Virus record (IMG/VR): IMGVR_UViG_3300020179_000035
Span: 1 to 58,843 of that record
From: a virus
Reading direction: 5' to 3' (one strand)
DNA length: 58,843 bases
Positions 17,299 through 55,322 of this stretch are shown here, piece by piece (the stretch's first letter is position 1; every line of letters begins with the position of its first letter). The position numbers and the translations under genes were made by a program. The notes beneath the pieces were generated by a model, which was not told where the DNA came from, did no database searches, and worked only from the letters and a program-made list of their open reading frames with translations.

Positions 17299-17748
17299 AT
17301 GAATTCTAATCCTGTTTCCCGTAGAAGTTTGCCTAAAAATATTGCTGACATTTACGATTCTTTTACCGATTTAACTTCTAAATGGAGAGAAAATGCTTTA
17401 TGTAAAAATAGCGTTCTTTCTATGGAAGATTTCTTTTCTATCAATAGTGATAAAAAATCTGTCTATTCAGCTTCAAAAGCTATATCAATGTGTAATTCTT
17501 GTCCCGTTCAAGTTGAATGCCTACATGAATCTATGAAATATAATTACGATGGCGTTTGGGGTGGGACACTATATCGTCAACGTATATATTTCATTAGAAA
17601 CTATCTCAATAATGATCTTGCTAATCTGACTATGGAAAAAGCTAAAGAGTTCGTTCAAATGGCCAAAATCCAAAATCTTACACTTTTTAAAATTAAACGT
17701 AAATATCGCAGAAAGGCTGTACAGAAAGATGACTTACTTTCGCAATGA
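17299..17748 (+). CDS. WhiB-family Fe-S transcription regulator
   Basis: 149 residues. Four Cys in the WhiB pattern (Cys35, Cys65, Cys68, Cys74; the CNSC and ECL parts are typical) would bind a 4Fe-4S cluster; MEDFF lies between. GVWGGT (85-90) is the family's hallmark turn, followed by a basic region. WhiB proteins bind the sigma factor and are confined to actinobacteria and their phages. It may reprogram host transcription or block superinfection. This is the best single host indicator in the window. Confidence 0.88.
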   Translation: MNSNPVSRRSLPKNIADIYDSFTDLTSKWRENALCKNSVLSMEDFFSINSDKKSVYSASKAISMCNSCPVQVECLHESMKYNYDGVWGGTLYRQRIYFIRNYLNNDLANLTMEKAKEFVQMAKIQNLTLFKIKRKYRRKAVQKDDLLSQ

Positions 17749-24119: not shown

Positions 24120-25724
24120 ATGTTTGACAAAATTAAACTGGGATGTCCCAATCTTTGGCTTCAGTCTTCTGATTTTTCAAGGGTTACTGACATTATTACA
24201 TCTACTATTTCTCGCAATTTTTACACTATGGATTTTGTCAATGGATTTTCTAAGTTTGTTGATGGACAATGGAAACAAATTCTTGTACCTAATCCTGCTT
24301 ACCCTGAAATGGCCACTGATTCACATATAATCACTTTTGATCCTCAAGTCGCTCTACATTATCTTACTACAGACAAAACTATTACTCGTTCTACATATAT
24401 TATTAATGTACCTTCATCTCCGGCTGATTCCATTACACCTTATTCTTCTATTCTTTACCATTTCAAATCTCTTTATCGCACAGCCTTTTGGGCAGACGAT
24501 ATAGCAGCAATGCCTTTGCAGTTTATTTTTATTTCTGCTCTCGAATGCCCAGAAGATTTTGTTCATTTGTTTACTGTTCTAGAAGATTCTTATCCAACTC
24601 CGCAAGAACTTTCTACAATCGTTACTCATATTAATGAATCAGCTCATGACCGTCTTATTACTGGCACTACAGTAAAAGAGATTGTTAACGCTGGTATCGG
24701 CCTTTCCGAATCCCAGTTTATTGATCTGTGCCTAATGTCCGTTGTCAATAATTCTAAAATTGATCCCAAGTATATTTATGATGTCAAAATGGCTAATATA
24801 AAGAAGAATGGTATTCTTGAAATACTTAAGCCTACCATATCTTTTTCTGATATTGGCGGTCTTGATAATATTAAGGATATCATTCGTCGTACTGCTGTTT
24901 TGCGTAAAGATCAACATCGTGCAATTTCTTTTGATGTAGTGCCAATCAGAAGACTTCTTATGGTTGGTGTTCCTGGTACTGGCAAATCTGCTATTTGTCA
25001 AGCTACTGCTAAAGAACTCAATCTTGATCTTGCACGCACTGGCATTAGCCAAGTTATGAATTCTTTCATTGGCCAATCAGAGGCCAATATGCGTGCAGTC
25101 TTTAAGCAGATCAGAGCCATGTCTCCTTTGTGCGTATGGATTGACGAGTTTGGTCGCGATCTTTCAGGTGGCACAAGTTCTTCTCATGTCGACGGTGGCA
25201 CAACTGATCGTGTTCACGGTGAGTTTTTGACTGGTCTCCAAGAACTTCCTGAAGACACATTTTTGTTGTGTGCTGCGAACTCTCTTGATTCTCTGAAACC
25301 AGAAATGCTTCGTGCTGACCGATTTGACAAAATTATGTTTGTTGGTTTACCTTCTTTTAGTGAACGCAAACATATTTTTCAAATTCATCTTTCTAAAATT
25401 GATACAGATCATTCTTTTGATTATGATGCTATCGCTGATGCAACTCAGTACATGACTGGTGCTGAGATAGTCTCTTTGATTAAAGAAACTAAATTTTATG
25501 TTGTTTCTGAATCTTTGAGACCTATCGAAACAAATGATATTCTTACTTATGCTTCTAAAATTAAAAATATTATTTGGATGAAACATCATGAAACGGTTGT
25601 CTCAATGTACAAATATGCGTTGGAACAGTGGGATTGGGCATCCACAGAACAAATGAACGATGCTACAATAATACTATCCAAAACTTCAACGCAAAAACAA
25701 TCAACATCCGTAACATGGAAATAA
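24120..25724 (+). CDS. AAA+ ATPase (Ycf46/Cdc48-like)
   Basis: 534 residues. The N-terminal 240 residues are unassigned. The AAA domain starts with FSDIGGLDNIK, as in Ycf46 and Cdc48 modules. Walker A is GVPGTGKS (283-290), Walker B VWIDE (339-343), and the arginine region is LRADRFD. The C-terminal small domain follows. AAA ATPases of this class unfold or remodel proteins. In the cassette it could act like Cdc48 on conjugated proteins, which is inference. Its start follows a terminator, so it may be transcribed separately. Confidence 0.8.
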   Translation: MFDKIKLGCPNLWLQSSDFSRVTDIITSTISRNFYTMDFVNGFSKFVDGQWKQILVPNPAYPEMATDSHIITFDPQVALHYLTTDKTITRSTYIINVPSSPADSITPYSSILYHFKSLYRTAFWADDIAAMPLQFIFISALECPEDFVHLFTVLEDSYPTPQELSTIVTHINESAHDRLITGTTVKEIVNAGIGLSESQFIDLCLMSVVNNSKIDPKYIYDVKMANIKKNGILEILKPTISFSDIGGLDNIKDIIRRTAVLRKDQHRAISFDVVPIRRLLMVGVPGTGKSAICQATAKELNLDLARTGISQVMNSFIGQSEANMRAVFKQIRAMSPLCVWIDEFGRDLSGGTSSSHVDGGTTDRVHGEFLTGLQELPEDTFLLCAANSLDSLKPEMLRADRFDKIMFVGLPSFSERKHIFQIHLSKIDTDHSFDYDAIADATQYMTGAEIVSLIKETKFYVVSESLRPIETNDILTYASKIKNIIWMKHHETVVSMYKYALEQWDWASTEQMNDATIILSKTSTQKQSTSVTWK

Positions 25725-35379: not shown

Positions 35380-35452
35380 TCCGAGATAGCTCAGTTGGCA
35401 GAGCAGCTGACTGTTAATCAGCGGGTCGCAGGTTCGAGCCCTGCTCTCGGAG
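35380..35452 (+). tRNA. tRNA-Asn (anticodon GTT)
   Basis: Acceptor TCCGAGA/TCTCGGA, D arm GCTC/GAGC, anticodon stem GCTGA/TCAGC, loop CTGTTAA, T arm GCAGG-TTCGAGC-CCTGC, all paired. CCA is not encoded. Confidence 0.95.
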
Positions 35453-36843: not shown

Positions 36844-37675
36844 CCTAATCAAATTCCATATGTTTATATTAATTTTTTTTATTAGTTTATTTTTCTATTT
36901 TTTTTTCACATCAAACGTTTTGGCTTATAATTTTACTTTAAATAATTCTCAAAAAGTATGTGTTACTTCTGGATCAAATACACCACCTTCTCAAGGAACT
37001 CTTTATTGGGTTAATTATTCTAATCCTCCTGCAAATCCAGCTTACACATATATTTCTTTAGATTCTTGGGATTCTTTATCAATTGATCAAAAGTTTTATA
37101 TCAAACCTTCTTGGACTTTTATTTTTTCTGGAAATTGTAGTTCTTTAAATGTTACTTATGTATTTTCGGATAACAGTCCTTCTACTACTATTTTTCAATC
37201 TATCCCTTCTACTACTGTCATTCCCTTTATTCCTTCTACTACTATTTTTCAATCTATTCCTCCTTTTACTACCATCCCTAATCTTACTCCTACTACAGAA
37301 ATTTTGTTGCCTCCAGTTTCTAGTGTAGAACCTTCTATTCCAACTACTGATACAATTGTTGACAACGAAAAACAAAAGTCTGTCCCTGTTGCCAATACTT
37401 TACCTAATTATAATAAAGTTACTACTACCATTTTTGAATCTACAACTACATTAGCTTATCATTCTGATACGACTCTTACTGATCAAAAAGATCAATCAAA
37501 AATTTTACCTCTTGATGATCAACCTAGTCAATATGATCCAAAATATGTTGCTCTATACGCACTTATAGCTTTTCTTGTATTTCTTTTACTTAATAATTTT
37601 ATTAAATATACCCAAATTTATAAGTATGGCCATGAAACTTGGCCTCAAAGAATATGGAGGGTTTTTTTCAAGTGA
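36833..37675 (+). CDS. Secreted Thr/Pro/Ser-rich protein with C-terminal membrane anchor
   Basis: 280 residues from the ATG at 36833. The N terminus is a hydrophobic signal ([16 protein letters not shown]), followed by a Cys-containing domain and then about 100 residues rich in Thr, Ser, Pro and Ile with IPSTT-type repeats. A C-terminal membrane segment ([13 protein letters not shown]) and basic tail follow. It may be a surface stalk. It overlaps the collagen-like gene by 4 bases (GTGA). Confidence 0.6.
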
Positions 37676-38832
37676 AAAAAATTTATAAGATACCTTTATT
37701 ATTTATAGTAATTTTTTTGTTCGTTTCAATATCTTATGTTAAAGCTTCTAATACAAATTCAACGCCAACTTCTGTTTTTATACCTATTGCTCCAACAAGA
37801 ATATTAGACACTCGTTCTTCTTACAAAGTTGGTTCTCTTGACGGTTCTTCTAGTCCATATATTCTTCAGGTTTCTGGATCAATATCTATTCCTCAATCTA
37901 ATGTTCAAACTATCGTTCCGTTAAATAGTTATGCAGTTTCCTTAAATTTAACGGCTACTCAAACTCAAGCTAATAATTTTGGTGGATACATTACAGTATA
38001 TCCTTGCGGCGAAAGACCCGATGTTTCTAATATAAATTTTATTAACGATCAAACAATAGCCAACTCTGTTTCGGTCCCACTATCTGAATCTGGGAGTATT
38101 TGCATATATGTTTATGGAAGATCTCACATACTTATAGACATTGCTGGATATTATCAAGTTATATCTTTTACTGGAGGTCAACTTGTTAGGGGTCCAGCGG
38201 GTCCATCAGGTCCACAAGGTCCAGCAGGTGCTACGGGAGCTACTGGTGCAACTGGTGCAACTGGTCCTACTGGCCCAACAGGGGCTACAGGTGCAACCGG
38301 ACCGACTGGCCCGACAGGAGCAACGGGAGCAACAGGGGCGCAAGGACTTCAGGGCCCAACTGGACCACAAGGTTTACAGGGTTTACCCGGCCCTCAAGGT
38401 CCCGCTGGAAATAGTTATACAGTAATGCCTATTTTAGCTCAAACGTACAGTAATTCTTATTATGACATATTAACTTTTAATGCTTCCTCCGATCAAATAA
38501 TTCTTGGAGTTAAGTGTCAAAAAGATCTTGGTAGTGATATCGTAAGACATTATGTCAGAACATCTACACCAACTAATTCAATTATACAAGGCTATTATTT
38601 ATCCAATCGATTTACATATAACAATTCTTCTGCATCGGGCTCTGTTCTCCACGGTATAAACGCTTTTCCTGGTTCAAATAAAGAAATAGCTATTTGGAAC
38701 GGTGGAGAGACATCTTACGATGGTCACTATGAAATTCATATTATGACTCAAACTAATTTTATAGAAATACAATTATTTGTTCAAATTACTTCAAATAATT
38801 GTAAATATTCTGTTGCTTATACAGTTTCTTAA
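37672..38832 (+). CDS. Secreted collagen-like protein with actinobacterial surface domain
   Basis: 386 residues starting at GTG after GGAGGG. A signal peptide is followed by a domain of about 130 residues with [18 protein letters not shown] and [12 protein letters not shown], a pattern found in secreted proteins of actinobacteria. Then come about 26 Gly-x-y repeats ([13 protein letters not shown]...) and a C-terminal beta-rich domain of about 130 residues. It is likely exported from infected cells or is a virion part. The host-like domain suggests gene exchange with the host. Confidence 0.65.
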
Positions 38833-41671: not shown

Positions 41672-42457
41672 TTAGAAAATGTTTAAATCCTTGAATCGTT
41701 GATCAATCTGATCCGAGTATTGAGTAGAGATCTCTACCACGTAATGCTGTATGAGATGATTCTTTTGTCTCTGCGCTGTAGAAGGATTAATGTGCTGTTT
41801 ATACAATAACTTTTTAATATGATAAAATTTTGTATCTAAAAATGTTCTGACAACTAGCTCGTAGTCATCAGCGATTTCATATTTAGCATTGTGCCCGCCT
41901 AGTTTATGATAGACATTTGATCTCCATGCTCTAACATGATTTGGAGCAGAAACAATATGTTTCATAGTTGTAGGATTTATTTCCGGCGAAGACATAACCC
42001 ATACTTCATATTCTTGCGACCAATATTCCGAACCATATCCAAATGCCCAACCCTTAGGATATACGCCTGACTGTCCATCGGGTAAAATCTCGCACCAATC
42101 TGAGTAGACGAAACCTACCTCAGGATTGTCTCGGAATGCCCCGTTAATCTCTTCCAGAGCGTCTGCAGTAAGCTCATCGTCATGATCTAGCTCAACAAGT
42201 ATATCTCCCTCTGCAAGCATAAATCCACGTCTCTTATTGCGACCTATGTTGCCTGAATGAACATGACTTTTATACATCTGAATTTTATATCTTTCATCTG
42301 CACAAAAGCCATAGACTTGATGCCATACATTGTCATTGGTTGAATCATCTATTATGATCCATTCCCAATCTTTAAATGTTTGAGCTTTTAGAGAAGCCCA
42401 TGTACGAGAAAATACATTCTTATCTGTATTATACGTAGGTGTTATTATTGAAATCAT
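41672..42457 (-). CDS. Family 2 glycosyltransferase
   Basis: 261 residues. ISIITPTYN at the start, IIDDST (acidic metal/nucleotide site), then DHDDEL as the DxD-type motif and YSDW match the GT-A fold of GT2. It would transfer a sugar to a phage or host surface molecule. It overlaps the membrane protein gene upstream by 4 bases, the end of the minus-strand operon. The target is unknown. Confidence 0.85.
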   Translation of the reverse strand: MISIITPTYNTDKNVFSRTWASLKAQTFKDWEWIIIDDSTNDNVWHQVYGFCADERYKIQMYKSHVHSGNIGRNKRRGFMLAEGDILVELDHDDELTADALEEINGAFRDNPEVGFVYSDWCEILPDGQSGVYPKGWAFGYGSEYWSQEYEVWVMSSPEINPTTMKHIVSAPNHVRAWRSNVYHKLGGHNAKYEIADDYELVVRTFLDTKFYHIKKLLYKQHINPSTAQRQKNHLIQHYVVEISTQYSDQIDQRFKDLNIF

Positions 42458-42750
42458 ACGAAATGCTTAATTATTGCTGCGCTTGCTAGAAAAACCCATA
42501 GAACATTAAATAATATAATTGTTGGCAGTGTTTTTTTAGTAGAAGACCATATTAAACTTAGGCTTGACGCAATAGCAAAAATATATAACCACCACCATTG
42601 TTTGCCAAATAAAAGTCCTGGAAATATAATAGCTATCTTTGTTGCAAAACCCCAAGCTTCAACTGAATTTGGTTTAGTCCAATAAGATTTATTTGACATT
42701 TGTTTTATGGCATCTATGACTTTATAGAAAAATATTTTAATTTGATTCAT
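42454..42750 (-). CDS. Small membrane protein
   Basis: 98 residues with a polar N terminus and three likely membrane segments (roughly residues 33-48, 51-66 and 75-96). It sits directly before the glycosyltransferase and may anchor it or move its substrate; this is inference. Confidence 0.55.
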   Translation of the reverse strand: MNQIKIFFYKVIDAIKQMSNKSYWTKPNSVEAWGFATKIAIIFPGLLFGKQWWWLYIFAIASSLSLIWSSTKKTLPTIILFNVLWVFLASAAIIKHFV

Positions 42751-42756
42751 ATCTTT

Positions 42757-43392
42757 TTACTGTTCTCTATATGTTTTCGATAAGTATTTGTATATTTTTC
42801 CTTGATGTTGTTTGCGATCATTAACTATTATATCTTGATACTCTACACCTTTAGTGAAATACCAGTGATCTGGTTCGGCAAAATGAAAAAATATCATTTC
42901 AACTTCGTTATTTGCTGGATCAGGAAATTTATTTCGCCAATGATATTGATCTTCTCCGTAATAACATACAGCTTGATTTGGTTCCAGAATAAATTCTTTA
43001 TTATTTATATAGATTGGCCAATTTGTTTTGTATGATATGCACAAATCAATTGTATAAGTACAGGCATTATCATCGACATGATAAGGTAGATTAGCTCTTG
43101 TTCCATGATACATTGAGTACACACAGTATGTAGGAACTAAACTATTAGAATTAAATATACTTTTAGCCATGTTGGTAAGAAGCAATTGTTCTTCTGAGAG
43201 GAACTCCTCATCAGGAATACTATATCTTCCTAAACCTGAATTGTATTCTAATAATGAATTATTTTTTTTATAAATAATTCTATTTTTTAATTCAAGAAAT
43301 TTTTCCTCTGAAAAGACATTGTTTAAAATAAATGGTTCGGGTCTTACGGTCAGCATTCTATTTGTATAATAATCATAAACTTTATTTGTCAT
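42757..43392 (-). CDS. 2OG-Fe(II) oxygenase-like protein
   Basis: About 211 residues from the ATG; a GTG 18 bases upstream is an alternative start. The jelly-roll pattern has HVDD (HxD: His and Asp about 105-107), a strand, then a conserved QYHWRNKF with the distal His. These are the iron ligands of 2OG oxygenases. A clear Arg for 2-oxoglutarate was not placed. One of three such genes in this island. Confidence 0.6.
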   Translation of the reverse strand: MTNKVYDYYTNRMLTVRPEPFILNNVFSEEKFLELKNRIIYKKNNSLLEYNSGLGRYSIPDEEFLSEEQLLLTNMAKSIFNSNSLVPTYCVYSMYHGTRANLPYHVDDNACTYTIDLCISYKTNWPIYINNKEFILEPNQAVCYYGEDQYHWRNKFPDPANNEVEMIFFHFAEPDHWYFTKGVEYQDIIVNDRKQHQGKIYKYLSKTYREQ

Positions 43393-44089
43393 TACATTTC
43401 TTTTTTTCACTAACCTGAGTTTCAGTTTCTATTATTTGATTATCGAATTGGTTATTATTATCTTTTATAGTTTGTATAAAAGTTGATATAATCCATTTGT
43501 CGCCCGATATTGGCACGCAACCCTGATGTGGATAGGTCCAATGTGTGGGGAATAAACATATTGAACCAGCTTTTGCTGGAACTTTCAACTCATGTTCCCT
43601 AAAGTATGTTTCCCCGCCCATTTCAACATCGTTTAAATAAATGATTGCAGCCAACACTCTGTCTTTTGTGGTGGGAGTATGATCCATACCACCATCAATA
43701 TGCTCTCGATAATATCCAACTCCCTTTTTGTATTCCTGTACTCTAAATCCAGTATCTTGAATATTAACCCAGTCCCATAACCATCTAAACTCTTCTCTAT
43801 ATTTTGCTATAGATAAAAATAATTTTTCAACTATTGCGTTTTCGCAAGTATCTAACTTATCTGTTGGTAAATTATACTCAACAAGTGTATGGTGAGACCA
43901 ATTTATATCCATGCTATTTTTAATAGAAGTTAAGACACCACTAATAGTAGGACCAGGAGAAGCCATTATGTTGTAATACTTTTTTAACTCACTTAATGTT
44001 AAGTTACATATTTCTTTATCTATAGCATTTTCTGCAACCATTATTGCGGCAGATCTACCAGCTGGCCAATGAAAACTTATATTACTCAT
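43382..44089 (-). CDS. P4H-type 2OG-Fe(II) oxygenase
   Basis: 235 residues from the ATG after AAAGGA. YYREHIDGG gives HxD (His130, Asp132 in this numbering); AAIIYLNDVEMGGET is the typical P4H central motif, and FPTHWTYPHQG holds the distal His (188), followed by a Lys that takes the role of the 2OG-binding residue. Prolyl 4-hydroxylase-type enzymes hydroxylate Pro in collagen-like repeats, and a 750-residue collagen-like fibre is encoded upstream. That link is inference. Confidence 0.8.
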   Translation of the reverse strand: MSNISFHWPAGRSAAIMVAENAIDKEICNLTLSELKKYYNIMASPGPTISGVLTSIKNSMDINWSHHTLVEYNLPTDKLDTCENAIVEKLFLSIAKYREEFRWLWDWVNIQDTGFRVQEYKKGVGYYREHIDGGMDHTPTTKDRVLAAIIYLNDVEMGGETYFREHELKVPAKAGSICLFPTHWTYPHQGCVPISGDKWIISTFIQTIKDNNNQFDNQIIETETQVSEKKKCNDK

Positions 44090-44104
44090 TATCATCCTTT
44101 TGGT

Positions 44105-44356
44105 TTAACTATTTAAAAGTTTTTCGTAAGCGTTTAATACTTGTTTTAATCTTTTTTCAACAATAGTTTTCCAAGAATCGCCTAAAGCTTCGTTGCCAGA
44201 AAAAGTTGGTTGCCAAGTAAATTTGCCATCAACTACCTCTAATGATTCTGGATCTATGCCAACCATTATAGCAGCTGAATATATTTCTAGCTCCAACTTT
44301 TTACGAGCACTTGACCTTAGTGCTGCTTTCTCATTGCTGGATAATATGAAGTCCAT
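44105..44356 (-). CDS. Hypothetical small helical protein
   Basis: 83 residues. N-terminal helices with AARK-type charge, then GIDPESLEVVDG and a C-terminal helical coil. Similar in size to two other small proteins in the island, at 47316 and 48164, but no clear common family. Confidence 0.5.
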   Translation of the reverse strand: MDFILSSNEKAALRSSARKKLELEIYSAAIMVGIDPESLEVVDGKFTWQPTFSGNEALGDSWKTIVEKRLKQVLNAYEKLLNS

Positions 44357-44365
44357 CTTTTACTC

Positions 44366-45175
44366 CTAGTTTCTATTAAAAATTTTATTTAAAAAAGTTT
44401 TCTTTTCATTATCAATAGATTCATCAAGTTGTCTTTGAAGTTTTTTGTATTTACTTTTCTGTCTTTTTGGCATAAAAGGGCCACCAAAACCTCTATACTG
44501 CAATAGGTTATAGGCTATACTATCCCCCCATAATATGTCTAAAGACTTTTGTCTCTTAAAGGGAATGACGTGCCACATAGGTGTTCCCATTTCTATTTCA
44601 AATGGTTGATCTGTTAGAATATTCATAACAATATGTGCGTTATGATAATAGTCAGTATTAACTACGGCTGGTAACATAGTATAATTTGGGTTGGGATTCC
44701 ATAATGGTGGAAGAAATAGCGAAGACCATCCTGGAGCTGTTTTTGTTAACCATGGATTAATTACTTTGACATAATTAGCTTTTTCAATTTTTCTAACTTT
44801 TGTAACTGGACATTCTCCAGTTTGTCCATAGCTAAACTTTTCTATTCCAAAATTGCCCATATCTGTTGAAAGATCAAATTGACCCTCCCAAAATTTATGG
44901 TCAACTGATGGCCTAAACATTAATTTAGCCCAGAGTGGAATAGTGAATCCAGTTGCAATATAATCAGAAGTTCCAGAACAACGTTTTAGGCTACCCTCTT
45001 CTCCACTAAGTTGTTTCCACCAATCTGGCCAATTACCAAGATTTTGGTATGGCCTACATTCATCGTCCATTAATTGTGGGACATGAGGCGTCAATAATAC
45101 TTGGCCTTCTTTAATTTTTGGAATATCATTAAATACTTTTGGACTAACTATTTGCAATTTTTCTGAGTTCTTCAC
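44366..45175 (-). CDS. Conserved phage protein near the halogenase
   Basis: 269 residues if started at GTG at 45175, which overlaps the halogenase gene by 32 bases; a later TTG start is possible. Trp- and Pro-rich segments such as WSSLFLPPLWNPNPNY and a C-terminal basic region. It resembles DUF6065-type phage proteins, but the match is by eye and uncertain. Its role may be linked to the halogenase. Confidence 0.5.
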   Translation of the reverse strand: MKNSEKLQIVSPKVFNDIPKIKEGQVLLTPHVPQLMDDECRPYQNLGNWPDWWKQLSGEEGSLKRCSGTSDYIATGFTIPLWAKLMFRPSVDHKFWEGQFDLSTDMGNFGIEKFSYGQTGECPVTKVRKIEKANYVKVINPWLTKTAPGWSSLFLPPLWNPNPNYTMLPAVVNTDYYHNAHIVMNILTDQPFEIEMGTPMWHVIPFKRQKSLDILWGDSIAYNLLQYRGFGGPFMPKRQKSKYKKLQRQLDESIDNEKKTFLNKIFNRN

Positions 45176-46619
45176 CGTGATCTACCAACTTTTGACTAAG
45201 TAGTTGTTTTGCTATATTGTTTATATCTTTAATTCCCGGATATCTGGCACTATAAGCATCTAATTGAATTGATGCTATTTCTGGGTTAAGAACACCTTGA
45301 CCCTGAGCTACGTGCCATAAATGTCCTGCCGCAAAAAGCTCATATCCAGTAGATGGAACATCATGTACTTCTGGACACCTAATATTCCAAAGTTGCAAAA
45401 GATGTTCAAGAAGTTCTGGTTTTTCTGCTGATTGTTGCGCCAACCACATATCAGTATCTTTTCTATCAGAGATATAATGTAATGATATCATACATAATAT
45501 GTTATTCATAATGGAATCCATTATTCTATGATATTCTTTTATGCCATATGTTCTATCCTCGGAAAATGTCGGCAAATACGAGCACAAAAGCCTAGCCTGT
45601 TGAATTGTTGTTGATATAGAAGTGGCTTCCAGCGGCTCAACAAAACTTGCAGCCAGTCCAACAGCAATACAATTATTCTTCCATGTTTCTTTAAAATATC
45701 CAGAAGTAAAATCAATTACTTTAGATGGTTCAACTTCAAAACCATGTATTATAGAGGCTTCCCGTATAGCTTGTAGGGATGAACAGTAATCAGAAGAAAA
45801 CACATATCCATTACCTCTACGATTTAACGTGGGTATTTCCCACATCCAACCATTACTTAACGCCCGTGCTCTTGTATACGGTTTAATTTTTCCAGATGGA
45901 TCTGATTGAGTTGGGAAGGCAATTGCCTTATCACAAGGCAAATATTTTCTATATGGAATAAATGTTTGATCAGCAATTTTGCTAAGAATTTTTCTATGGA
46001 ATCCTGTAGCATCTATGAAAAAATCACCCACAATATTTTTCTGAGATGCTTTTAACAAAACACTTTCTATATATCCATTCTCCGAAACGGATACATCGCT
46101 TACTTCATCGTCAATAAAAGTTATTCCTTTTTCTTGAGATATTTGCGTAAGATACTGATTTAATTTAAATGTATCAAAATGGTATTGGTTAGACCCATAA
46201 TGTGTTTTTTCACCAAGATCAATAATCTTATCTTCTATTATTCCGCGCCAAGAATAAGTGTTTGTTAATAGCCTATTGTTTTCTAAGGCCGTTGCGTATC
46301 CAGCCCAAAAACTTCCAAATTGAACACCAGTTCCACCAACACTATGGAAATAATCAGGAGTATGATTCGTCCAATTTTCATATCTAATTCCATATTTATG
46401 GGTAATGTCTACATTTTTAATCATATCATGAGGATGAATGCCGACTAGATCTTGAAATATGCGCCAATGCTCAGTAGAGCCTTCTCCTACGCCTATGATT
46501 CCTATTTTATTTGATGATATATTTATAATATTATATTTTTTAAAATAAGATTTCAATATTAAGCCAGTAACCAATCCGGCCGTTCCAGATCCTACAATTA
46601 TTATTTTTTTTTCATTCAT
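45144..46619 (-). CDS. Flavin-dependent tryptophan halogenase-like protein
   Basis: 491 residues. GSGTAG near the N terminus binds FAD. GVGEGSTEHW and THKYGIRYENW follow, with the Lys in THK placed like the catalytic Lys of PrnA-type halogenases. GWMWEIP is the halogenase signature WxWxIP, and SFVEPLEATSI matches the C-terminal FAD region. Such enzymes chlorinate or brominate Trp or other aromatic groups using a flavin reductase. The substrate here is unknown. It overlaps the upstream gene by 4 bases. Confidence 0.88.
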   Translation of the reverse strand: MNEKKIIIVGSGTAGLVTGLILKSYFKKYNIINISSNKIGIIGVGEGSTEHWRIFQDLVGIHPHDMIKNVDITHKYGIRYENWTNHTPDYFHSVGGTGVQFGSFWAGYATALENNRLLTNTYSWRGIIEDKIIDLGEKTHYGSNQYHFDTFKLNQYLTQISQEKGITFIDDEVSDVSVSENGYIESVLLKASQKNIVGDFFIDATGFHRKILSKIADQTFIPYRKYLPCDKAIAFPTQSDPSGKIKPYTRARALSNGWMWEIPTLNRRGNGYVFSSDYCSSLQAIREASIIHGFEVEPSKVIDFTSGYFKETWKNNCIAVGLAASFVEPLEATSISTTIQQARLLCSYLPTFSEDRTYGIKEYHRIMDSIMNNILCMISLHYISDRKDTDMWLAQQSAEKPELLEHLLQLWNIRCPEVHDVPSTGYELFAAGHLWHVAQGQGVLNPEIASIQLDAYSARYPGIKDINNIAKQLLSQKLVDHGEELRKIANS

Positions 46620-47323
46620 TTTTTCAATACCAATGTAAATCCTGTTAGGATAGGAATGTGAAAAGTGTACATGTCCTCACGCTCAGTTAGTGACATTAGG
46701 TACTGAGTCCAAGTATGCCCGGTGCCTCTTTGGTAGACTTTGTGAAAATCATTAACATTCCATAAACACATTAAGCCATTTGGGGCTATTTTTGCCCAAA
46801 GATTGTCAACTAAAGATAGATCATGGCTAAATATTTCAAAGTCTATAAAGATTAAATCATAAAACTTATTTAATGAAGAAGTTTCAATGTCTTGCATTAG
46901 GACGATATTGCTGCTGTCAATAGACTGATTTAAATACTTTTCTAAGTAATCCAAATGAATTGTATTTACATAATCAATATTTGGAACAATATTTTTTATT
47001 TCAGCCATAACCAAATGGCATATAGTTCCACATAAAGCAGTGTTTGGATTCTTAAGTCTAGTTACAAACTCAGCCAAAGAGCGAACAAATAGTTCTGCGT
47101 CTAATCCAGAGCTATTATCATGACACAGGTTACCAAGAACAGCCGAATGCCAGTTTAGTTGTTGCGACATACCTCTTGCTTCATTACTTCTGTCGACACC
47201 AGTTTGGATTTCACTATTTAAAACAGTATTAAATGAGTCCCGCAAAGATTGGTGTGATAATTCACAACTTTTAGTTTTTGAATAAATATTAGATACTTCT
47301 GGATTAGCATAGTTTTCAGACAT
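46616..47323 (-). CDS. Methyltransferase-like protein
   Basis: 235 residues. The C-terminal half has the Rossmann-type pattern of class I methyltransferases (YDLIFIDFEIF and WAKIAPNGLMCLWNV). The Gly-rich motif I is not clear, so SAM binding may be lost. It is operonic with the halogenase, 4-base overlap. Confidence 0.45.
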   Translation of the reverse strand: MSENYANPEVSNIYSKTKSCELSHQSLRDSFNTVLNSEIQTGVDRSNEARGMSQQLNWHSAVLGNLCHDNSSGLDAELFVRSLAEFVTRLKNPNTALCGTICHLVMAEIKNIVPNIDYVNTIHLDYLEKYLNQSIDSSNIVLMQDIETSSLNKFYDLIFIDFEIFSHDLSLVDNLWAKIAPNGLMCLWNVNDFHKVYQRGTGHTWTQYLMSLTEREDMYTFHIPILTGFTLVLKK

Positions 47324-47558
47324 TTTCTAATCTCCATTTTAATACAGTATATATATACCAGAGTCTTCTAAGGCTTTGCTGCAAATTAAGAAGTTCAGCG
47401 TCGTTGTAGTTATTCTGACCATAAACATTTACCGACATACTTAATAAGTCAGTAATGGTATATTCATTTAAGTTTTCCGTTTGACCACCAATAAGTATTA
47501 TTGATTCACATAATTTAGTATAAATATATTCAAAATCTTTTTGTAAATTATATCCCAT
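47316..47558 (-). CDS. Hypothetical small protein
   Basis: 80 residues, helical, with a Tyr-rich middle and an acidic start. It overlaps the methyltransferase-like gene by 8 bases. No family is recognised. Confidence 0.5.
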   Translation of the reverse strand: MGYNLQKDFEYIYTKLCESIILIGGQTENLNEYTITDLLSMSVNVYGQNNYNDAELLNLQQSLRRLWYIYTVLKWRLENV

Positions 47559-47571
47559 TATACAGCCTCAA

Positions 47572-48162
47572 TTATCTAAACCATGTGACTAGCGAATATT
47601 TAACTGTACTATCGTTTTCTCCAACAGGTTCTGCAATGTGAGCGTATGGAAAATTGGATGGAAAAATAATAACATTTCCAGCTTTTGGTTTAATTGAAAC
47701 ATTAAATTTAGGGAAAACAAGATTTCCACCACTAAAACCATCATTAAGAAAAGCAACTAAACTTAAAGTCCTAGAATTTACTGATGCATGGTCGTGATGA
47801 GCTTCGTATTCAGCTCCCCCGGAATATTTTAGAACCCTATAACCCTCGTCCGCCTCTAGTTCAATTTCAAAATAATTTCTATAATCCCAGACCAATGGAT
47901 CTATTTTTGACCATATAGATTTCCATTCTTCAGCCAATGGTTTTACTCTTTCTATTTTAATATCTTCTGTAGAAAGAGGTTCCAATTCACATCCAACAGA
48001 TGTTCTAACATCTGATATCTGAGCATTGCCGACCCTAGATCTCTGCCAAGATAAATATCCCCATGGTTCGTTGCATTCTTTTTCCAAGAGTTCAATAAAA
48101 TTATTGGCGTTAAAAATATTTTCATACTCAACTATACATGTTGCATGCTGTACAAATTTCAT
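47572..48162 (-). CDS. P4H-type 2OG-Fe(II) oxygenase
   Basis: 196 residues from the ATG; a TTG 9 bases upstream is possible. The motif HHDH provides HxD, FLNDGFSGGNLVFP is the central P4H pattern, FPYAHIAEP holds the distal His, and Lys or Arg in KYSLVTWF follows. It is the best jelly-roll match of the three in the island. The substrate is unknown; fibre proteins are candidates. Confidence 0.78.
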   Translation of the reverse strand: MKFVQHATCIVEYENIFNANNFIELLEKECNEPWGYLSWQRSRVGNAQISDVRTSVGCELEPLSTEDIKIERVKPLAEEWKSIWSKIDPLVWDYRNYFEIELEADEGYRVLKYSGGAEYEAHHDHASVNSRTLSLVAFLNDGFSGGNLVFPKFNVSIKPKAGNVIIFPSNFPYAHIAEPVGENDSTVKYSLVTWFR

Positions 48163-48163
48163 A

Positions 48164-48412
48164 TTAGCCAATTAATCCTGACTTTATTTCTTCCATCTTT
48201 TCAATAACTGACATTATATTGGTATATTGTTCTCTTAGATAAGAGAATTTTTCTATAATATCTACATTTGGATCAAAATTATTTACATCGATATTTTCTG
48301 GCACTAAATCAGCATCGATTAGTATTGTCCATAACTGCTCTTTTAGTGAACCAATTCTTGATTCAACAATTTGCAGTTTTCTTTCTGAACTAATTGAGTT
48401 AAAAAAAGACAT
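48164..48412 (-). CDS. Hypothetical coiled-coil protein
   Basis: 82 residues with a long helix at each end and an acidic DVNNFDPNVD linker. It lies directly upstream of the oxygenase at 47572. Small helical proteins of this size may act as fibre or enzyme chaperones, but no family is seen. AAGGAG precedes the ATG. Confidence 0.5.
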   Translation of the reverse strand: MSFFNSISSERKLQIVESRIGSLKEQLWTILIDADLVPENIDVNNFDPNVDIIEKFSYLREQYTNIMSVIEKMEEIKSGLIG

Positions 48413-48455
48413 TTCTTCTCCTTAATATTTGTATTCAATTATATCATAATTATTT

Positions 48456-50198
48456 TTATATATCAATCACTTTGGAATAGTTCGAGTGACCAAATTGATT
48501 AGCTGCATTAAAATTACTTGAATTTCTAGTAACTAATATTATACCACCAGTGCTTCCAGTTGCGCCTGTGTCCCCTGGATTTGCGGTACCGCCTGTTCCT
48601 CCAGTATAGTTGGCATTTGTGGCGTTGTGAGTCGGAACGCCGCCTCTATTGCTTGTAACGGCTCCACTTGAATGATTTACTGTGGCTGCGGTGTGCGGAT
48701 GTGAACCGGAATTATGGCCAGATGGATGAGGGTTTCCTGCTCCTGGATTGGGTCCCGTGCTCCCTGCCGGATGATGATGATGGCCACCATGATGATGGTG
48801 ATTACCATGATGCCCATGTGAGGTATGGGTTGGAAAGTTGTGAGTATCTTTTGCGGTATGTGGTAGATTTTTGCCGGAACCACTAGGGTGATTGGCACCA
48901 GGATGGTGCGCAAGACCAGTGTGGTAATGTCCATCACCAGCACTTGTGTGCATATGACCGCTATGATTTGATGCTGGGTTATTGGGAAAAGCAGCGTGCC
49001 CGTGATGGTATGGGTGATGTCCTGCATTATGATTTCCGGAATGATGACCGTGACCAGGATGATGATGATGATTGCCGTGATTGCAGTCGCATGCGTGATT
49101 GCCGTTATGATTGGATAATTGATGGCCAAACAATTGTGTATTATTAGTAGTATGAGGTACATGCACAGCGTTAGAATTTCCGTTATGTGTAGAAATTCTA
49201 TGACCATTTACACCATGAGGGTGAGCACCATTCCCTGCATTATGGTGATGTGGACCATAGTGGGCTATTATATTTGGAACAAATGGGCCAGTTCTATTGG
49301 CGTTTTGATGGGCATTATGGTGAGTGTGACCATGGTGATTGGATGCCGGATGGTAGCCTTGAGTAATATGAACCACCGCATTGTGTGGGTGAGCGGGAAC
49401 GTTTCCGTCTGGATGCGGATGTGTTCCAGCATTGTGGCCAGATGGATGAGGGTTGCCTGCCCCAGGGTTGGGTCCAGTGCTTCCCGCCGGATGGGGAAAA
49501 TGTCCACCAGTATGATATCCTGTGATATTTGGTGCAGGATTTCCTTGTGTAGCTGGATTTCCTGCGCTTCCAGCAAATCCATAGCTGACTATAGTCCCAT
49601 TGCCAGAAATGTTTTTAGCCAAAACAATAACCAGTCCACCACCAGGACCTCCTGCACCACCAGTTCCAGCCGTAGCTGCATTACCCGTTCCACCAGCAGC
49701 GCCGACTGTATTGGAATGACCAGGATAATTACCAGCAGTTGCCGCCGTAACATTTCCACTTGAACCAGCTACCCCAAGTGAGCCTGCGCCTATTTTTGTT
49801 ACTGTACCAGCCGAAGTAATAAACCACCCCGATACAGCGTCGTCCATATCATGCATATCTGTTGCAGATAAGGCGTCAGTGCTTGTGCCCCACGCTTTTG
49901 CTGGGTTTAATGCATTTTGTCTTCCGGCTACTGTACCAGAACCATCGGCAACAGTCGCAGCAGAAGCTGTTGGCATTCCAAATGTTCCATCGTTAGTTAA
50001 CGTTCCGTTAACAAAAACTCTAAAACCATTTGTAAATAATGTTGCTCCAAAGTTTATTGTTAGATTTGTGTAGTACATATCTTTAGTTAGATATGTGGTG
50101 CCACTAGATATGGTTACAGAACCGTCGGTGCCCTCTCCAAAAATTGAATCGTCACGCTGTGCAATTGTTTTATTTATCCTTTTGATTCTACCAGCCAT
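48456..50198 (-). CDS. Adhesin/tail-fibre protein with His-rich insert
   Basis: 580 residues. The N-terminal 200 residues parallel the next gene: DGSVTI, YLTKDMYYTNLTI, FRVFVNG and glycine-rich GGAGGPGGGLVIV. About residues 230-520 are extremely rich in His, Gly, Asn and Pro (HPHG, NHHGHTHHN types). The C terminus resumes with GGIILVTRN. A block PAGSTGPNPGAGNPHPSGHN occurs twice, about 220 residues apart. The protein probably binds receptor or metal at the virion tip. The polyglycine flanks recall T-even gp38-type adhesins. Confidence 0.6.
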   Translation of the reverse strand: MAGRIKRINKTIAQRDDSIFGEGTDGSVTISSGTTYLTKDMYYTNLTINFGATLFTNGFRVFVNGTLTNDGTFGMPTASAATVADGSGTVAGRQNALNPAKAWGTSTDALSATDMHDMDDAVSGWFITSAGTVTKIGAGSLGVAGSSGNVTAATAGNYPGHSNTVGAAGGTGNAATAGTGGAGGPGGGLVIVLAKNISGNGTIVSYGFAGSAGNPATQGNPAPNITGYHTGGHFPHPAGSTGPNPGAGNPHPSGHNAGTHPHPDGNVPAHPHNAVVHITQGYHPASNHHGHTHHNAHQNANRTGPFVPNIIAHYGPHHHNAGNGAHPHGVNGHRISTHNGNSNAVHVPHTTNNTQLFGHQLSNHNGNHACDCNHGNHHHHPGHGHHSGNHNAGHHPYHHGHAAFPNNPASNHSGHMHTSAGDGHYHTGLAHHPGANHPSGSGKNLPHTAKDTHNFPTHTSHGHHGNHHHHGGHHHHPAGSTGPNPGAGNPHPSGHNSGSHPHTAATVNHSSGAVTSNRGGVPTHNATNANYTGGTGGTANPGDTGATGSTGGIILVTRNSSNFNAANQFGHSNYSKVIDI

Positions 50199-50200
50199 AA

Positions 50201-50977
50201 TTATGCCACCTGTGAATAAATAACTGTTCCAGCAGCGCAGCTAGTTCCGCCGGTAACATCAGTTGACACTCCAGAATTTATTGTTGCTGCGGATGAAATG
50301 ACAATAATAACACCACCGCCACCGCCGCCCGCACCTGTTGTGCCAGGAGCTTTAATGTATCCAGTACCACTAGAAACACCAATAAATCTAGCTGTTAATA
50401 TTACAACTCCGCCTCCAGCTCCAGCGGTACCTCCAGCACCGCCTTTTAAAAAAGTTGGCGTTGTCGATGTGCCCGTAATAGAATATCCCTTTACTGATTG
50501 GAATGGCTGTTTATAATAATCTGTTCCACCAGTTGCTGCTGTTGGAGCAGTTGCTGTCTGTGAAGCGCTAGATCCACCAAGACTATGTGTTACAGCGGTC
50601 GACGTTGCCCCACCTTGCTGTATGGATCCAGCCGTAGAAAAACCTGTAGTAAAACCAATGATAGAATCACTGCCGAATGTTAATAAATTCTGTACAAAAA
50701 TTCTATAACCAGCTGGATTTAAACGCACGTTTGCCGATAAGGTTAAATTATAACAATATATATCCCTAGTCATTGTATAGACCGAAGAAGATGGAACCAT
50801 TGATAAAATAGTGCTTGAGCCATCAAATGTTACCGATCCATCTGCGGCAGACCCATAGATTGAGTCAGGGACATCCACTAAGTTCGCCATAGTAAGTAGG
50901 TCAGAATATGTGGACGAAGTACTGCCAACAAAACTAATTCCTGTTGTAGTATTATTTGCCCTAATAAACTTCCCCAT
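50201..50977 (-). CDS. Adhesin/tail-fibre protein, Gly-rich paralogue
   Basis: 258 residues. It shares DGSVTFDG, YTMTRDIYCYNLTL and YRIFVQNLLTF with the larger protein, and two glycine-rich segments (GGAGGTAGAGGGVVIL and TGAGGGGGGVIIVI) where the larger one has its His-rich insert between equivalents. It is probably the same fold without the insert. Placed next to the fibre genes. Confidence 0.6.
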   Translation of the reverse strand: MGKFIRANNTTTGISFVGSTSSTYSDLLTMANLVDVPDSIYGSAADGSVTFDGSSTILSMVPSSSVYTMTRDIYCYNLTLSANVRLNPAGYRIFVQNLLTFGSDSIIGFTTGFSTAGSIQQGGATSTAVTHSLGGSSASQTATAPTAATGGTDYYKQPFQSVKGYSITGTSTTPTFLKGGAGGTAGAGGGVVILTARFIGVSSGTGYIKAPGTTGAGGGGGGVIIVISSAATINSGVSTDVTGGTSCAAGTVIYSQVA

Positions 50978-50982
50978 AGATA

Positions 50983-51357
50983 TCAGTACTCTTCATAGCC
51001 ATTTATTATATAGTTAACTGTAGTTGCACTTGCTTTACCGCGAATTTTATCCGAATAGGTATCACCAGCTGTATTATCACTATTTGTTAATACAAGAGAT
51101 GTTGATAAAGTAACTGTTTCATTTGCCGCTAAGGCAAGAGCATTTATAAAAACATGATCGGTGGCGACAGCAACATTTTTTGGTTTTAAAAAAAGAGTAA
51201 CAGTAGCTGCAGACGCTGCTGTATTGCATAATATAATTTCTTTAATAACAGTAGTTGTAGTATATCCAGTGTTTCTTGGGACAGTATATAAATCCTCTGC
51301 TGTATCAGCTACAGCAAAATTGTCAGGACCAGATAAACGCTTTTGCGTTAATGGCAT
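50983..51357 (-). CDS. Phage structural protein, beta-sandwich-like
   Basis: 124 residues. Alternating beta strands with Ala/Thr/Val, such as [14 protein letters not shown], typical of phage fibre or baseplate beta-sandwich domains. GGAGG precedes the ATG, which overlaps the collagen-like gene's stop. Confidence 0.55.
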
Positions 51358-53609
51358 TATAAAACCTCCATAATAAATTTAATCATATTATTTCGTACTT
51401 GTTTGGAATTAATCCATACGGATCCATTATACATTAAATGGTCACCATTCGCTACAGAAGTTATAGTAACATCAGATAAATCATCTAACGGTCCAGTTGG
51501 ACCACTTGGTCCCTGTGCTCCTTGTGCACCCTGTGCGCCCTGTGCTCCAGTTGCTCCAGTAGAACCCTGTGGTCCGGTATTTCCCTGTGGACCCGTTGCG
51601 CCTTGTGGACCCGTCGCTCCCTGTGCGCCTGTCGCACCCTGTGCACCCTGAGGACCAGTTGCCCCAGTCGCACCAGTATCACCCGTGGCTCCCGTGGCTC
51701 CCTGTGAGCCAGTTGCCCCTTGCGGACCCTGTGGCCCTGCTGCTCCCTGAGGACCTGTGGCTCCTTGGGGTCCTGCATCGCCCTGAGCGCCCTGAGGGCC
51801 GGTTGAACCCTGGGGTCCTTGCGCACCAGTTGCTCCCGTCGCACCCTGAGCACCCGTTGATCCCTGTGGTCCCACATCACCCTGTGGTCCTTGTGCACCA
51901 GTTGCGCCGGTTGCCCCTTGGGCACCTGTCGCACCTTGCGGTCCCTGTGCCCCCGTTGCTCCGGTTGCCCCCTGTGCACCCGTAGCACCAGCGTCTCCTT
52001 GTGGACCCTGCGCGCCCGTTGCACCCTGCGCGCCCGTTGCACCTTGAGCACCAGTAGCACCCTGTGCCCCCTGCGCCCCCTGTGCCCCTACATCTCCAGT
52101 TCTGGCAAACGTAATGATGACGTCATCGTTGTTTGCGAATGGTGTAGTGCTTGAGCCTGTAACAAACGACGACGAAACGCGAAAGAATCCGGTTTCTTCA
52201 GTTATTGAAGAAATGGTGAATAGGGCAAATGCCGACGAATCACCTTTTTTAGAAACACGGAAGTGACCCTTAATTGTGCTCGTAGAGTCATCAATTGTCC
52301 TTAGGTATGACTGAATGTCCGTTGAGTTGTCATCAACATCATCAATAATTAGTTCAGTCGATGTATCAAGGGGTGAATTATTAAACTTTAGTTTTCCTGC
52401 ACCGGGGTCAGTTTGTGCGGTATTTGAATCAAAGGTGTAGTCAAATGTAATTCCGCCAAAGTTGCCCTGAGCACCCTGTGGACCCTGTGAGCCTGTTGCC
52501 CCCTGTGCTCCAGTTGAGCCTTGTGCTCCGGTGGCCCCCTGAGGGCCAGCATCTCCCTGAGGACCAGTTGCTCCTTGTGCGCCGGGATTTCCTTGTGGAC
52601 CAGTTGCTCCTTGAGCGCCGGTAGCGCCCTGAGGTCCGATGTCGCCTTGTGCGCCGGTTGCTCCCTGTGAACCCTGTGCCCCCGTAGCGCCCTGAGGACC
52701 GGTTGCTCCCTGTGCACCCGTAGCGCCCGTAGAGCCTTGTGGACCAGCACCCCCCTGCGGTCCTGTCGCCCCCTGTGTTCCTTGAGGACCCTGAGGTCCT
52801 GTATCCCCTTGGGGACCAGTTGCTCCTTGTGGACCAGTAGAACCCTGAGGTCCCTGAGAGCCCTGAGGACCCTGAGCACCCTGTGCGCCCTGAGGACCGG
52901 TTGCTCCCTGTGCCCCCTGAGGACCCTGGGGACCAGTTGCCCCCTGTGGTCCTGTGTCTCCTTGTGGCCCAGTTGCCCCTTGCGGTCCTTGAGCACCAGT
53001 GGCACCAGTTGAGCCTTGTGGCCCTGTTGCTCCCTGTGCTCCGGTGGCCCCTTGTGCTCCAGTGGCTCCCTGAGGGCCTTGAGCGCCCGTAGCGCCCACA
53101 TCGCCCTGAGGACCGGTCGCGCCCGTGGCGCCGGTAGCACCCTGTGCTCCGGTTGCCCCCTGTGGTCCGGCCGCCCCCTGTGCTCCGGTGGCACCCTGTG
53201 GTCCAGTGTCTCCCTGTGGGCCCTGTGTGCCCGTAGCGCCCTGAGAACCGGCCGCCCCCTGTGCTCCCTGAGGACCCTGCGCCCCCTGAGGACCAGTTGC
53301 TGTCGTGGGTTTGAATTTTGTACCGTCAAATACTAGGGCCTGGTTGCTTGTTGCGCCCGTCGTATCTACCTCAATATCATCGACAAAGAGTGCAGCAGCC
53401 TTAAAGGTGTCGTCGGTTTTGAGGACGTCGGCACTGTCGCGATAGAGATTAGTATCCGCAGCACCGCTTCCTGGTCCCCAAACTAAACGGCCACCCGCCT
53501 GTACCTGGAGGCGAGCATAGGTATCTGCGTCAACGAAAACGGTAATGGCATCAGAACCGGCAGACGATAACTGCCGTATCGTTATGGGAACGGTAAATTT
53601 CTGTGCCAC
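51357..53609 (-). CDS. Collagen-like tail fibre protein
   Basis: 750 residues starting at GTG after a GAGG site. The N-terminal 100 residues form a fibre-base domain. Two long stretches of Gly-x-y triplets (mainly [12 protein letters not shown] and GPQGAT) flank a beta domain of about 130 residues (FDYTFDSN to IITFART). A short C-terminal domain ([14 protein letters not shown]) follows. Such repeats make a collagen triple helix in phage tail fibres. Hydroxylation by the nearby P4H-like enzymes would stabilise it, as a hypothesis. Higher GC than the genes to the left. Confidence 0.85.
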
Positions 53610-53651
53610 GACCTCAATCGCTTCCTATTCGCGGCCCCTCAAGGCCCTTTA

Positions 53652-55322
53652 TCAACCGACTACAACGATTGTGTAATCATTTACGGAAATTGACCCCAAG
53701 AGAACCACAGATATGGTGTTTCCATTTGAGCGCGTTACGTCACCAATAACAGTTGCTCCGGTGTTCACTTCATAAATCTGCACGTTGACGTCAGTTGTTC
53801 CGAAGTTATGCGTAACCGTAGTGGTCGATGTTCCGCTTACTGATGCTGCGCAACCTTGTTTTGCGACTCGCGCAAGAGATGGGGTGCTGGTTGTGCGACC
53901 AGTTGATTCGCCTGATGCTGAAGCAAGGTTCGTTCTAGCCCCAGATTCAGTCGCCGCACCAGTGCCACCATGAGTGACCGCAATGGCCGTGCCGTTCCAT
54001 GTCCCCGCAGAAATTGTTCCGACTGTAGTGATTGAATCATCACCAGTATATGTTCCCCCAGCAACTGTTGCCAGGGTTGCGTTGTAGGCCTGTACGTCAG
54101 TGCCGATAGCAAGACCAAGCGTGGTGCGCATGTCTGATGTGGTTGAATCGTCAAGGAGCGTTCGTGCTGTCGCCGTTAGGTCGGCCAATGCGGCGGTGCC
54201 CGAGCCGGTGAAGTAGGGCATTTTGTTTGCCGCTGATGTTAGGCCAGCAAGTGCGGTAAGTTCGGCATCGTGCGCCTGAACATCTGTGCCAATCGCAAGG
54301 CCAAGATTGGACCTCGCCGTTGAGGCACTGGTGGCGCCCGTACCACCGCTTGCAATCGCGATTGCCGTGCCGTTCCATACACCGGTTGTAATGGTGCCCA
54401 GTGTCGTGATGGTTGACTGTCCAACATATGTTGAAGCAATATCAATTGTGTCGGCGTTAACGGTGATTCTGTCAGCCGTACCAACTACATCAAGAGTATT
54501 GCCATTTTTTGTTAGACCCGCACCAGCAGTTATTTGTCCGGCACCGGAAAACTGTGCGAATACCAGGGGGGTCGTTCCCAGAGTAATTGTGTCGTTCGTA
54601 GTCAGGACAAAGCCCGCATCACCATTTACAGTACCCTCGGTGACAAAGGTGAACATTCCTGCAGTTACTTCGGCAGAAGTATCCGCGTCATCGGCGCGAC
54701 TTGGGGAACCGGACGCGGCAACTACGTAAATTCCGTTTTCGGATGCACTGTCCTGGTTCTTTACGAGGACTCTGTTCCCGGTTGCAAGCACTACGCCATC
54801 AATCGTGTCGCCATTTTCCAGCCCTGAAGAAAGCGTGATTGCCTCCGTTGTAGCAACACGAACTGACGCCTTGACATCTAGGCCAGACCTTGCTGCGTCT
54901 ACATAGGCCTTGGTCGCAGCATGCCCAGCCTCGGTTGGTGTGGCAACACTAAGATTTCCGTTCGCATCTCGTTTGGCAATCTTGCTGGCAGTCGCCGCAT
55001 CTGTCGCATCATTGATGGCATTCCAGAACGACGCTGGCAACAAACCCGCACTGTCTGTATCAGCAAGATTGAGTGTCAGCGAAACGGTACCGTTTGATTC
55101 ACTAACAGTTAGGGCATCGGTGTGCGCGCCACCAGCCGAGATGGTGTGGGGGAGCGAACGCCATGCACCGTTGGCGTAAACTTTGATGGTATCAGTCGTG
55201 CTCTGATAGATGAGACGGCCTTCGAAGTTGCCCGAACCAGGGTCACTGGCAACAACCTCAAATGTCGCATTGATAAGTTGATTCTGATTGAGGTCAATAT
55301 TTGTTAGGAATTTTTGGGCCAT
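53652..55322 (-). CDS. Tail fibre protein with GGTGA/NLGL repeats
   Basis: 556 residues beginning MAQKF like the collagen-like protein. GTWNGTAIA, GGTGAxxA and [12 protein letters not shown] occur repeatedly in the C-terminal half, a repeat common in phage fibre proteins. The N terminus may attach to the baseplate. AAGGAAT precedes the ATG. Confidence 0.72.

Follow-up and report, generated by a model that had tools for sequence, protein, structure and literature searches.

A conserved halogenase and oxygenase operon next to a putative glycine-rich adhesin: a candidate adhesin-modifying cassette in a probable actinobacteriophage

The linear 58,843-base IMG/VR virus record IMGVR_UViG_3300020179_000035, referred to here in its full length as the window, carries on its minus strand a block of eleven genes (41672–48412) separated by a 43-nucleotide gap from the fibre genes that lie ahead of it. 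This operon encodes a flavin-dependent halogenase (HAL), two 2-oxoglutarate (2OG)-Fe(II) oxygenases of the prolyl 4-hydroxylase (P4H) type (P4Ha and P4Hb), a third oxygenase with an HxD...H motif (OXC), a protein with an O-methyltransferase fold (mt235), a DUF6065/dUTPase-fold protein with the working name DUF269, small proteins and a GT2 glycosyltransferase. Its constant partner is a putative glycine-rich adhesin, and we consider it fairly probable that the operon is a maturation cassette that modifies the phage's own glycine-rich adhesin. An earlier note on this DNA had proposed post-translational decoration of fibres; this general idea is retained here as the best-supported reading, whereas its details, a collagen-like substrate and halogenated tryptophan, are not.

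The operon is strongly conserved in related phages; its absence from relatives would, according to the earlier note, have spoken against the proposed decoration. A halogenase search of viral contigs returned 140 relatives, of which 80 were kept, and two further scans added few loci. Among relatives at 44–100% halogenase identity the gene order recurs with parts lost or swapped, and runs adhesin, s82, P4Hb, (s80, mt235), HAL, DUF269, (s83), P4Ha, OXC, mem98, glycosyltransferase, where s80, s82, s83 and mem98 are small proteins. The recurrence of this order across dozens of contigs, among which halogenase identity falls to about 44%, excludes chance as its cause. A separate search used only the N-terminal domain of the adhesin; after clustering at 70% identity, 58 dereplicated clusters had flanks of 3.5 kb or more upstream and 5 kb or more downstream. 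This set includes loci first found via the halogenase and is not a random sample. 2OG genes and DUF269 occur together in 50 of the 58 clusters, and HAL is present in 46 of those 50. The cassette lies downstream of the adhesin in 41 clusters, upstream in four and inverted in one, and HAL is absent in four. A histidine (His) tract, defined as at least seven His in a 60-residue window, is present in all 50 clusters with 2OG genes and DUF269 and in none of the eight without 2OG genes, where the maximum is 4; two of these eight are haloviruses, which do have DUF269. The Fisher probability for the His tract against the 2OG genes is 5e-10 before kinship is allowed for, and is not taken as independent evidence.

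The adhesin of the window is a protein of 580 residues (48456–50198; this and all features of the region described below lie on the minus strand) which contains 17% glycine, 13% His and 18 HxH motifs. No PHROG or Pfam family was found for it, and its assignment as a putative polyglycine-rich phage adhesin relies on its glycine-rich blocks, its position in the tail-fibre cluster and its varying tip, together with an N-terminal domain whose hidden Markov model (HMM) matches glycine-rich adhesins of haloviruses at 1e-9. Directly upstream of the operon it is paired with a shorter paralogue of 258 residues (50201–50977; 0.4% His), with which it shares the N-terminal domain; the long protein bears a His-rich insert at residues 229–509 (48672–49514). 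The pair is kept in nearly all relatives, in which the short paralogue is mostly 230–280 residues long with at most 2% His. Compared with a sister phage (L004), the insert is 49% identical, whereas the N-terminal domain, the C-terminus and HAL are 92%, 82% and 85% identical, respectively, and such fast divergence would be the pattern of a receptor-contacting region. In clusters with HAL the insert contains 21.5% His, compared with 0.9% elsewhere, and is enriched in proline in 44 and in asparagine in 34 of the 46 clusters. Four loci (L208, L225, L243 and L244) combine the adhesin and 2OG genes with two copies of DUF269 and no halogenase, and have a short and very tyrosine-rich His tract (for example HYHYNHYHPP).

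HAL (491 residues, 45144–46619) matches PF04820 with an E-value of 1.4e-100 (337.8 bits) and phrog_2928 with 3.7e-95. The FAD motif GxGxxG is found as GSGTAG at residues 10–15 and the WxWxIP motif as WMWEIP at residues 258–263, and K75 and E331 are kept in 100 and 98%, respectively, of 66 dereplicated rows. Judged by sequence, HAL thus belongs to the flavin-dependent (tryptophan) halogenase superfamily PF04820, as the earlier note had held in describing a minus-strand halogenase with intact motifs. VirX1 is a homologue of HAL in the PDB (3.7e-35), and several tryptophan halogenases score higher against HAL than VirX1 does. The profile alignment of HAL to PrnA and RebH ends at profile residue 406–410 or so but reaches 468 in 9luq and 444 in 6y1w; the C-terminal part is the one that, in tryptophan halogenases of the PrnA/RebH type, accommodates the free amino acid. 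This nearly full-length alignment to 9luq and 6y1w, and not to PrnA or RebH, would fit a substrate that is not free tryptophan, without proving it. Enrichment does not point to tryptophan as the site of halogenation, as it is scarce in the adhesin and not enriched in the insert, and together with the unaligned C-terminal part of HAL this leaves the halogenated tryptophan previously suggested unsupported. Nor does enrichment point to tyrosine, which is only mildly enriched (29 of 46 clusters) and is much higher in loci lacking HAL, and no residue is named here. Three other viral contigs (L076, L077 and L081) contain four halogenase-like open reading frames (ORFs) in nearly consecutive order beside very glycine-rich proteins; the record of L077 is positive for gp23.

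The two P4H-type oxygenases predicted earlier are confirmed as P4Ha (237 residues, 43382–44095) and P4Hb (199 residues, 47572–48171), both matching PF13640 above the gathering cut-off (1.6e-11 and 1.8e-13, respectively) and having the Bacillus prolyl 4-hydroxylase 3itq/5hv0 as their best match in the PDB (1.4e-6 and 3e-10 for 3itq). The HxD...H triad is H132/D134/H190 in P4Ha (at least 93% kept in 57 rows) and H125/D127/H178 in P4Hb (at least 92% kept in 80 rows), and domain and triad together identify both as P4H-type 2OG-Fe(II) oxygenases at the level of sequence. OXC (217 residues, 42757–43410) matches phrog_2954 (3.1e-15) and has the triad H111/D113/H157 (97–100% kept in 33 rows); it gave no Pfam match and no significant match in a PDB search, and the label `ferrochelatase' attached to phrog_2954 was discarded, as the motifs give it no support. 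Since the catalytic residues of HAL, P4Ha, P4Hb and OXC are 92–100% kept in 66, 57, 80 and 33 rows, respectively, all four appear to be active enzymes.

DUF269 (269 residues, 44366–45175; phrog_7084) gave no match in a Pfam scan, and in its family 11 of 55 members match DUF6065 and seven of 55 match dUTPase. Its AlphaFold2 model has a predicted local distance difference test score (pLDDT) of 92.7, and the top Foldseek matches in the PDB are dUTPases (8e-5, with template-modelling scores by target of about 0.5–0.7). In haloviruses, DUF269 homologues adjoin glycine-rich adhesins, and the stretch examined there showed no halogenase; nor was a halogenase HMM match found in the stretches surrounding 14 bacterial DUF6065 genes. 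DUF269 may be a helper linked to the adhesin, for which we propose a role as a binding or scaffold factor. In two haloarchaeal tailed viruses (L093, 8833–9669; L094, 8833–9714) the DUF269 homologue faces glycine-rich adhesin genes. For mt235 (235 residues, 46616–47323), the AlphaFold2 model (pLDDT 82.9) has O-methyltransferases of the SafC/COMT class and TrmR as its top Foldseek matches (best E-value 4e-9), which predicts a Rossmann methyltransferase fold; a Pfam search gave no convincing family. The methyltransferase-like gene of the earlier note is therefore upheld as to its fold, but methyltransferase activity is doubtful because no glycine-rich G-x-G motif for S-adenosylmethionine is visible by eye at strand 95–99 of a 19-row alignment.

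A comparable association is found in T4-like cyanophages, a separate lineage with cultured members. In Syn10, from which VirX1 comes, one block brings together glycine-rich proteins, two halogenases (one of them VirX1), several consecutive 2OG-type genes and a homologue of DUF269 (7.9e-21). A protein search with the Syn10 glycine- and His-containing adhesin CPUG_00135 retrieved 20 records from about ten phages, and a halogenase follows the adhesins, one or two genes downstream, in Syn10, S-RIM44, P-TIM40, S-CREM1, S-SZBM1, S-WAM1, P-RSM6, Sf-FR1 and Sf-CH3; in Sf-FP1 and syn9 a halogenase is located at the DUF269 match, according to annotation only. The genes behind the cyanophage halogenase are of oxygenase type in most of the phages and otherwise unannotated, and no DUF269 homologue is among the matches listed for S-SZBM1, S-WAM1 and P-RSM6. 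The Syn10-type adhesin has three to four near-invariant His in 14 sequences, and because the HMM of the actinophage adhesin does not match it, the linkage involves two distinct families of adhesin. In the pelagiphage HTVC008M (L090; 3031–5904 and 9986–11380), five genes labelled 2OG or ferrochelatase are situated behind tail-region genes and the halogenase between terminase subunits.

We infer from these linkages that the adhesin is the substrate, that it is hydroxylated and halogenated and that DUF269 assists. The enzymes would act on newly made adhesin during infection, before virion assembly. In the insert, with its many His, proline and asparagine residues, the 2OG enzymes would hydroxylate side chains, most likely proline in view of their kinship with P4H; HAL would halogenate a side chain there or on another part of the adhesin; and the DUF6065 protein with its dUTPase fold would bind the adhesin or gather the enzymes. 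The modified side chains may adjust how the quickly varying tip binds its receptor or metal, or how stable it is. Several observations weigh against this proposal. Synteny with the adhesin falls short of proof that the enzymes act on it. On the tree of the adhesin domain, two label changes suffice to account for the presence and absence of 2OG genes, so that the His association, being phylogenetically clustered, rests on few independent events. Loci lacking HAL keep their His tracts, which are shorter and tyrosine-rich, and tyrosine content is no greater at loci with HAL; halogenation is thus not required for the tract. His content is modest in several cyanophages (4–7 per 60 residues), and in HTVC008M the halogenase is beside terminase and neck genes, with most 2OG genes elsewhere. 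His-rich tips can also exist alone, as the part of the source available on T4 gp37 describes HxH iron sites and mentions neither modification nor modifying enzymes (PMC6957217).

More tentatively, and with somewhat less than even confidence, we suggest that at least two phage lineages may carry a dedicated tailoring system of halogenase, 2OG hydroxylases and dUTPase-fold helper that remodels the tip of a polyglycine adhesin, a tip that is rich in His and possibly binds metal. If this is true, host-recognition chemistry in these phages would extend beyond the twenty amino acids, adhesin tailoring would be what VirX1 and many unexplained cyanophage 2OG genes do in nature, and the enzyme-made side chains used by aquatic phages in host recognition would be invisible to sequence-based prediction of host range. 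As cultured phages carry the cassette, the adhesin target is testable.

So far, metabolism or repair has been seen as the role of the genes concerned. Cyanophage halogenases have been connected with tryptophan or antibiotic chemistry or with host metabolites, and phage 2OG genes with nitrogen metabolism, DNA repair or general protein modification (PMC9964418, PMC3037559, PMC10452541). No natural target of viral halogenases or aquatic-phage 2OG oxygenases was found named in the literature searched, and no statement on hydroxylation or halogenation of phage fibres, or on modification of adhesins, was found in a search that lay outside preprints and covered few subscription papers; the linkage described here offers a concrete target in the phage's own adhesin. 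Applied to the window, the published reading would have HAL make halogenated tryptophan or another metabolite, in keeping with its homology to tryptophan halogenases, while DNA repair or a shift in the nitrogen metabolism of the host would fall to the 2OG enzymes. We regard such auxiliary metabolism as unlikely: it leaves unexplained why the cassette is constantly linked to two glycine-rich adhesin families, one of which it accompanies in three arrangements, and alignment of HAL to PrnA or RebH stops at about residue 410, short of its C-terminal part.

The enzymes and the glycosyltransferase might instead alter envelope molecules of the host, blocking superinfection or changing receptors; modification of host surface compounds had also been offered in the earlier note. 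Two genes that close the operon point in this direction, namely mem98, a hydrophobic, membrane-like protein of 98 residues (42454–42750) with hydrophobic stretches in its translation, which is at the end of the operon in relatives too, and the GT2 glycosyltransferase (41672–42457; PF00535, 2.6e-19). Genes that change receptors are often located close to tail genes. The glycosyltransferase, which the earlier note had correctly recognized but had included in an island at 43382–48162 that does not reach it, occurs mainly in closer relatives and was detected at just 20 of 87 loci, whereas the 2OG genes, HAL and DUF269 track the adhesin, so that modification of the host surface seems to us a rather poor prospect.

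The earlier note pointed to collagen decoration, in which the P4H-type enzymes would hydroxylate proline of a collagen-like fibre and the halogenase would modify fibre tryptophan. A collagen-like fibre of 750 residues with Gly-X-Y repeats does exist upstream in the same block (51357–53609, beyond the island as then drawn), and P4Ha and P4Hb are P4H-like. However, long collagen, defined as at least 15 contiguous Gly-X-Y triplets, occurs at only 17 of the 43 operon loci left after dereplication, and the operon is retained in phages without collagen within the flanks examined; the gene is missing near most operons, where the His/Pro-rich adhesin is always present. Across loci, 1161 triplets contain proline 368 times at X and twice at Y, and the fibre of the window contains 45 X and one Y prolines. 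The hallmark of a collagen prolyl 4-hydroxylase system, constantly present collagen with proline at Y, is thus not found. The collagen-like gene also appears to recombine independently of the operon: 51525–55208 is shared at 99% with three phages whose halogenases are only 69% identical, and the match to a near-identical phage of 179.6 kb (99.3%) ends at 53168, inside this gene, which looks like a recombination point. Collagen was therefore discarded as the P4H substrate on its distribution and its X/Y proline positions, and decoration of this fibre is very improbable. A further ORF with collagen repeats (PF01391) is present at 37639–38832. Also very improbable is hitch-hiking of a cassette with an unrelated job into a tolerant insertion site at the end of the fibre module, since the linkage to the adhesin persists upstream, downstream and inverted while other neighbours change and is repeated in T4-like phages, although fibre modules are mosaic and adhesins with and without the operon fall into few separate tree groups.

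The other features of the region are as follows. The first gene of the operon encodes the small conserved protein s82 (48164–48412), which in most relatives is located between the adhesin and P4Hb; s80 (47316–47558) is likewise conserved and kept in operon order by relatives, and s83 (44105–44356) lies between DUF269 and P4Ha in closer relatives as well. Upstream of the adhesin pair is a conserved protein of 124 residues (50983–51357), at the same place as a gene for about 120 residues in many relatives. From the glycosyltransferase through the collagen-like gene, all gene junctions overlap or are at most 13 nucleotides apart, the sole exception being the 43-nucleotide gap before the operon. 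This gap is spanned by a candidate sigma70-like promoter (48438–48466; TTGATA-17-TATAAT with TG before the -10 element, 11 of 12 matches), a consensus match only, in a region that holds 54 such matches compared with 37.5 expected. Elsewhere in the window, seven tRNA genes are distributed over 540–35453, the last of them overlapping the start of an ORF call at 35395, and an AAA ATPase similar to a mycobacteriophage counterpart is encoded at 24120–25724.

The phage is probably an actinobacteriophage, because WhiB (PF02467) is encoded in the window (17383–17583) and in nearly all relatives tested (12 of 13 records, including the window); among 14 control genomes it was found in one, an actinobacterium. 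Of 15 records of relatives, 13 lack T4 gp23, those of 179–194 kb among them, and two halogenase-bearing ones (G014 and G015) have it; as the 13 are the nearest relatives, T4-like ancestry of the window phage is not supported.

Compared with known systems, the adhesin resembles polyglycine-rich tail-fibre adhesins, namely that of Salmonella phage S16 and the `glycine-rich adhesin' of Hardygib1, in having glycine-rich blocks at a tail-fibre cluster, but differs in its long His-rich insert and linked enzyme cassette. The T4 gp37 needle likewise has a His-rich host-recognition tip with HxH motifs, with no sequence kinship shown. The Bacillus prolyl 4-hydroxylase (3itq/5hv0) has the HxD...H triad in common with P4Ha and P4Hb, whereas the collagen neighbouring our operon lacks proline at Y, but for the single residue noted above. 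VirX1 (PDB entry 6qgm) is, like HAL, a viral flavin-dependent halogenase at a locus of glycine-rich adhesin, DUF269 and 2OG genes, but belongs to another phage lineage, the phage studied here being WhiB-positive with no gp23 found in close relatives; in the portion of the source available, VirX1 iodinates added small aromatics and its natural substrate is not named (PMC8407142). The flavin-dependent brominase SrpI, an enzyme of ribosomally synthesized and post-translationally modified peptides, acts on proteusin peptides (PMC10858898). The features of such pathways, namely a leader peptide, a peptide natural-product cluster and a protease or exporter, were not recognized in or around the operon, although no search was aimed at them. 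SrpI is a precedent for a halogenase acting on a ribosomal peptide, whereas the substrate proposed here is a large virion protein.

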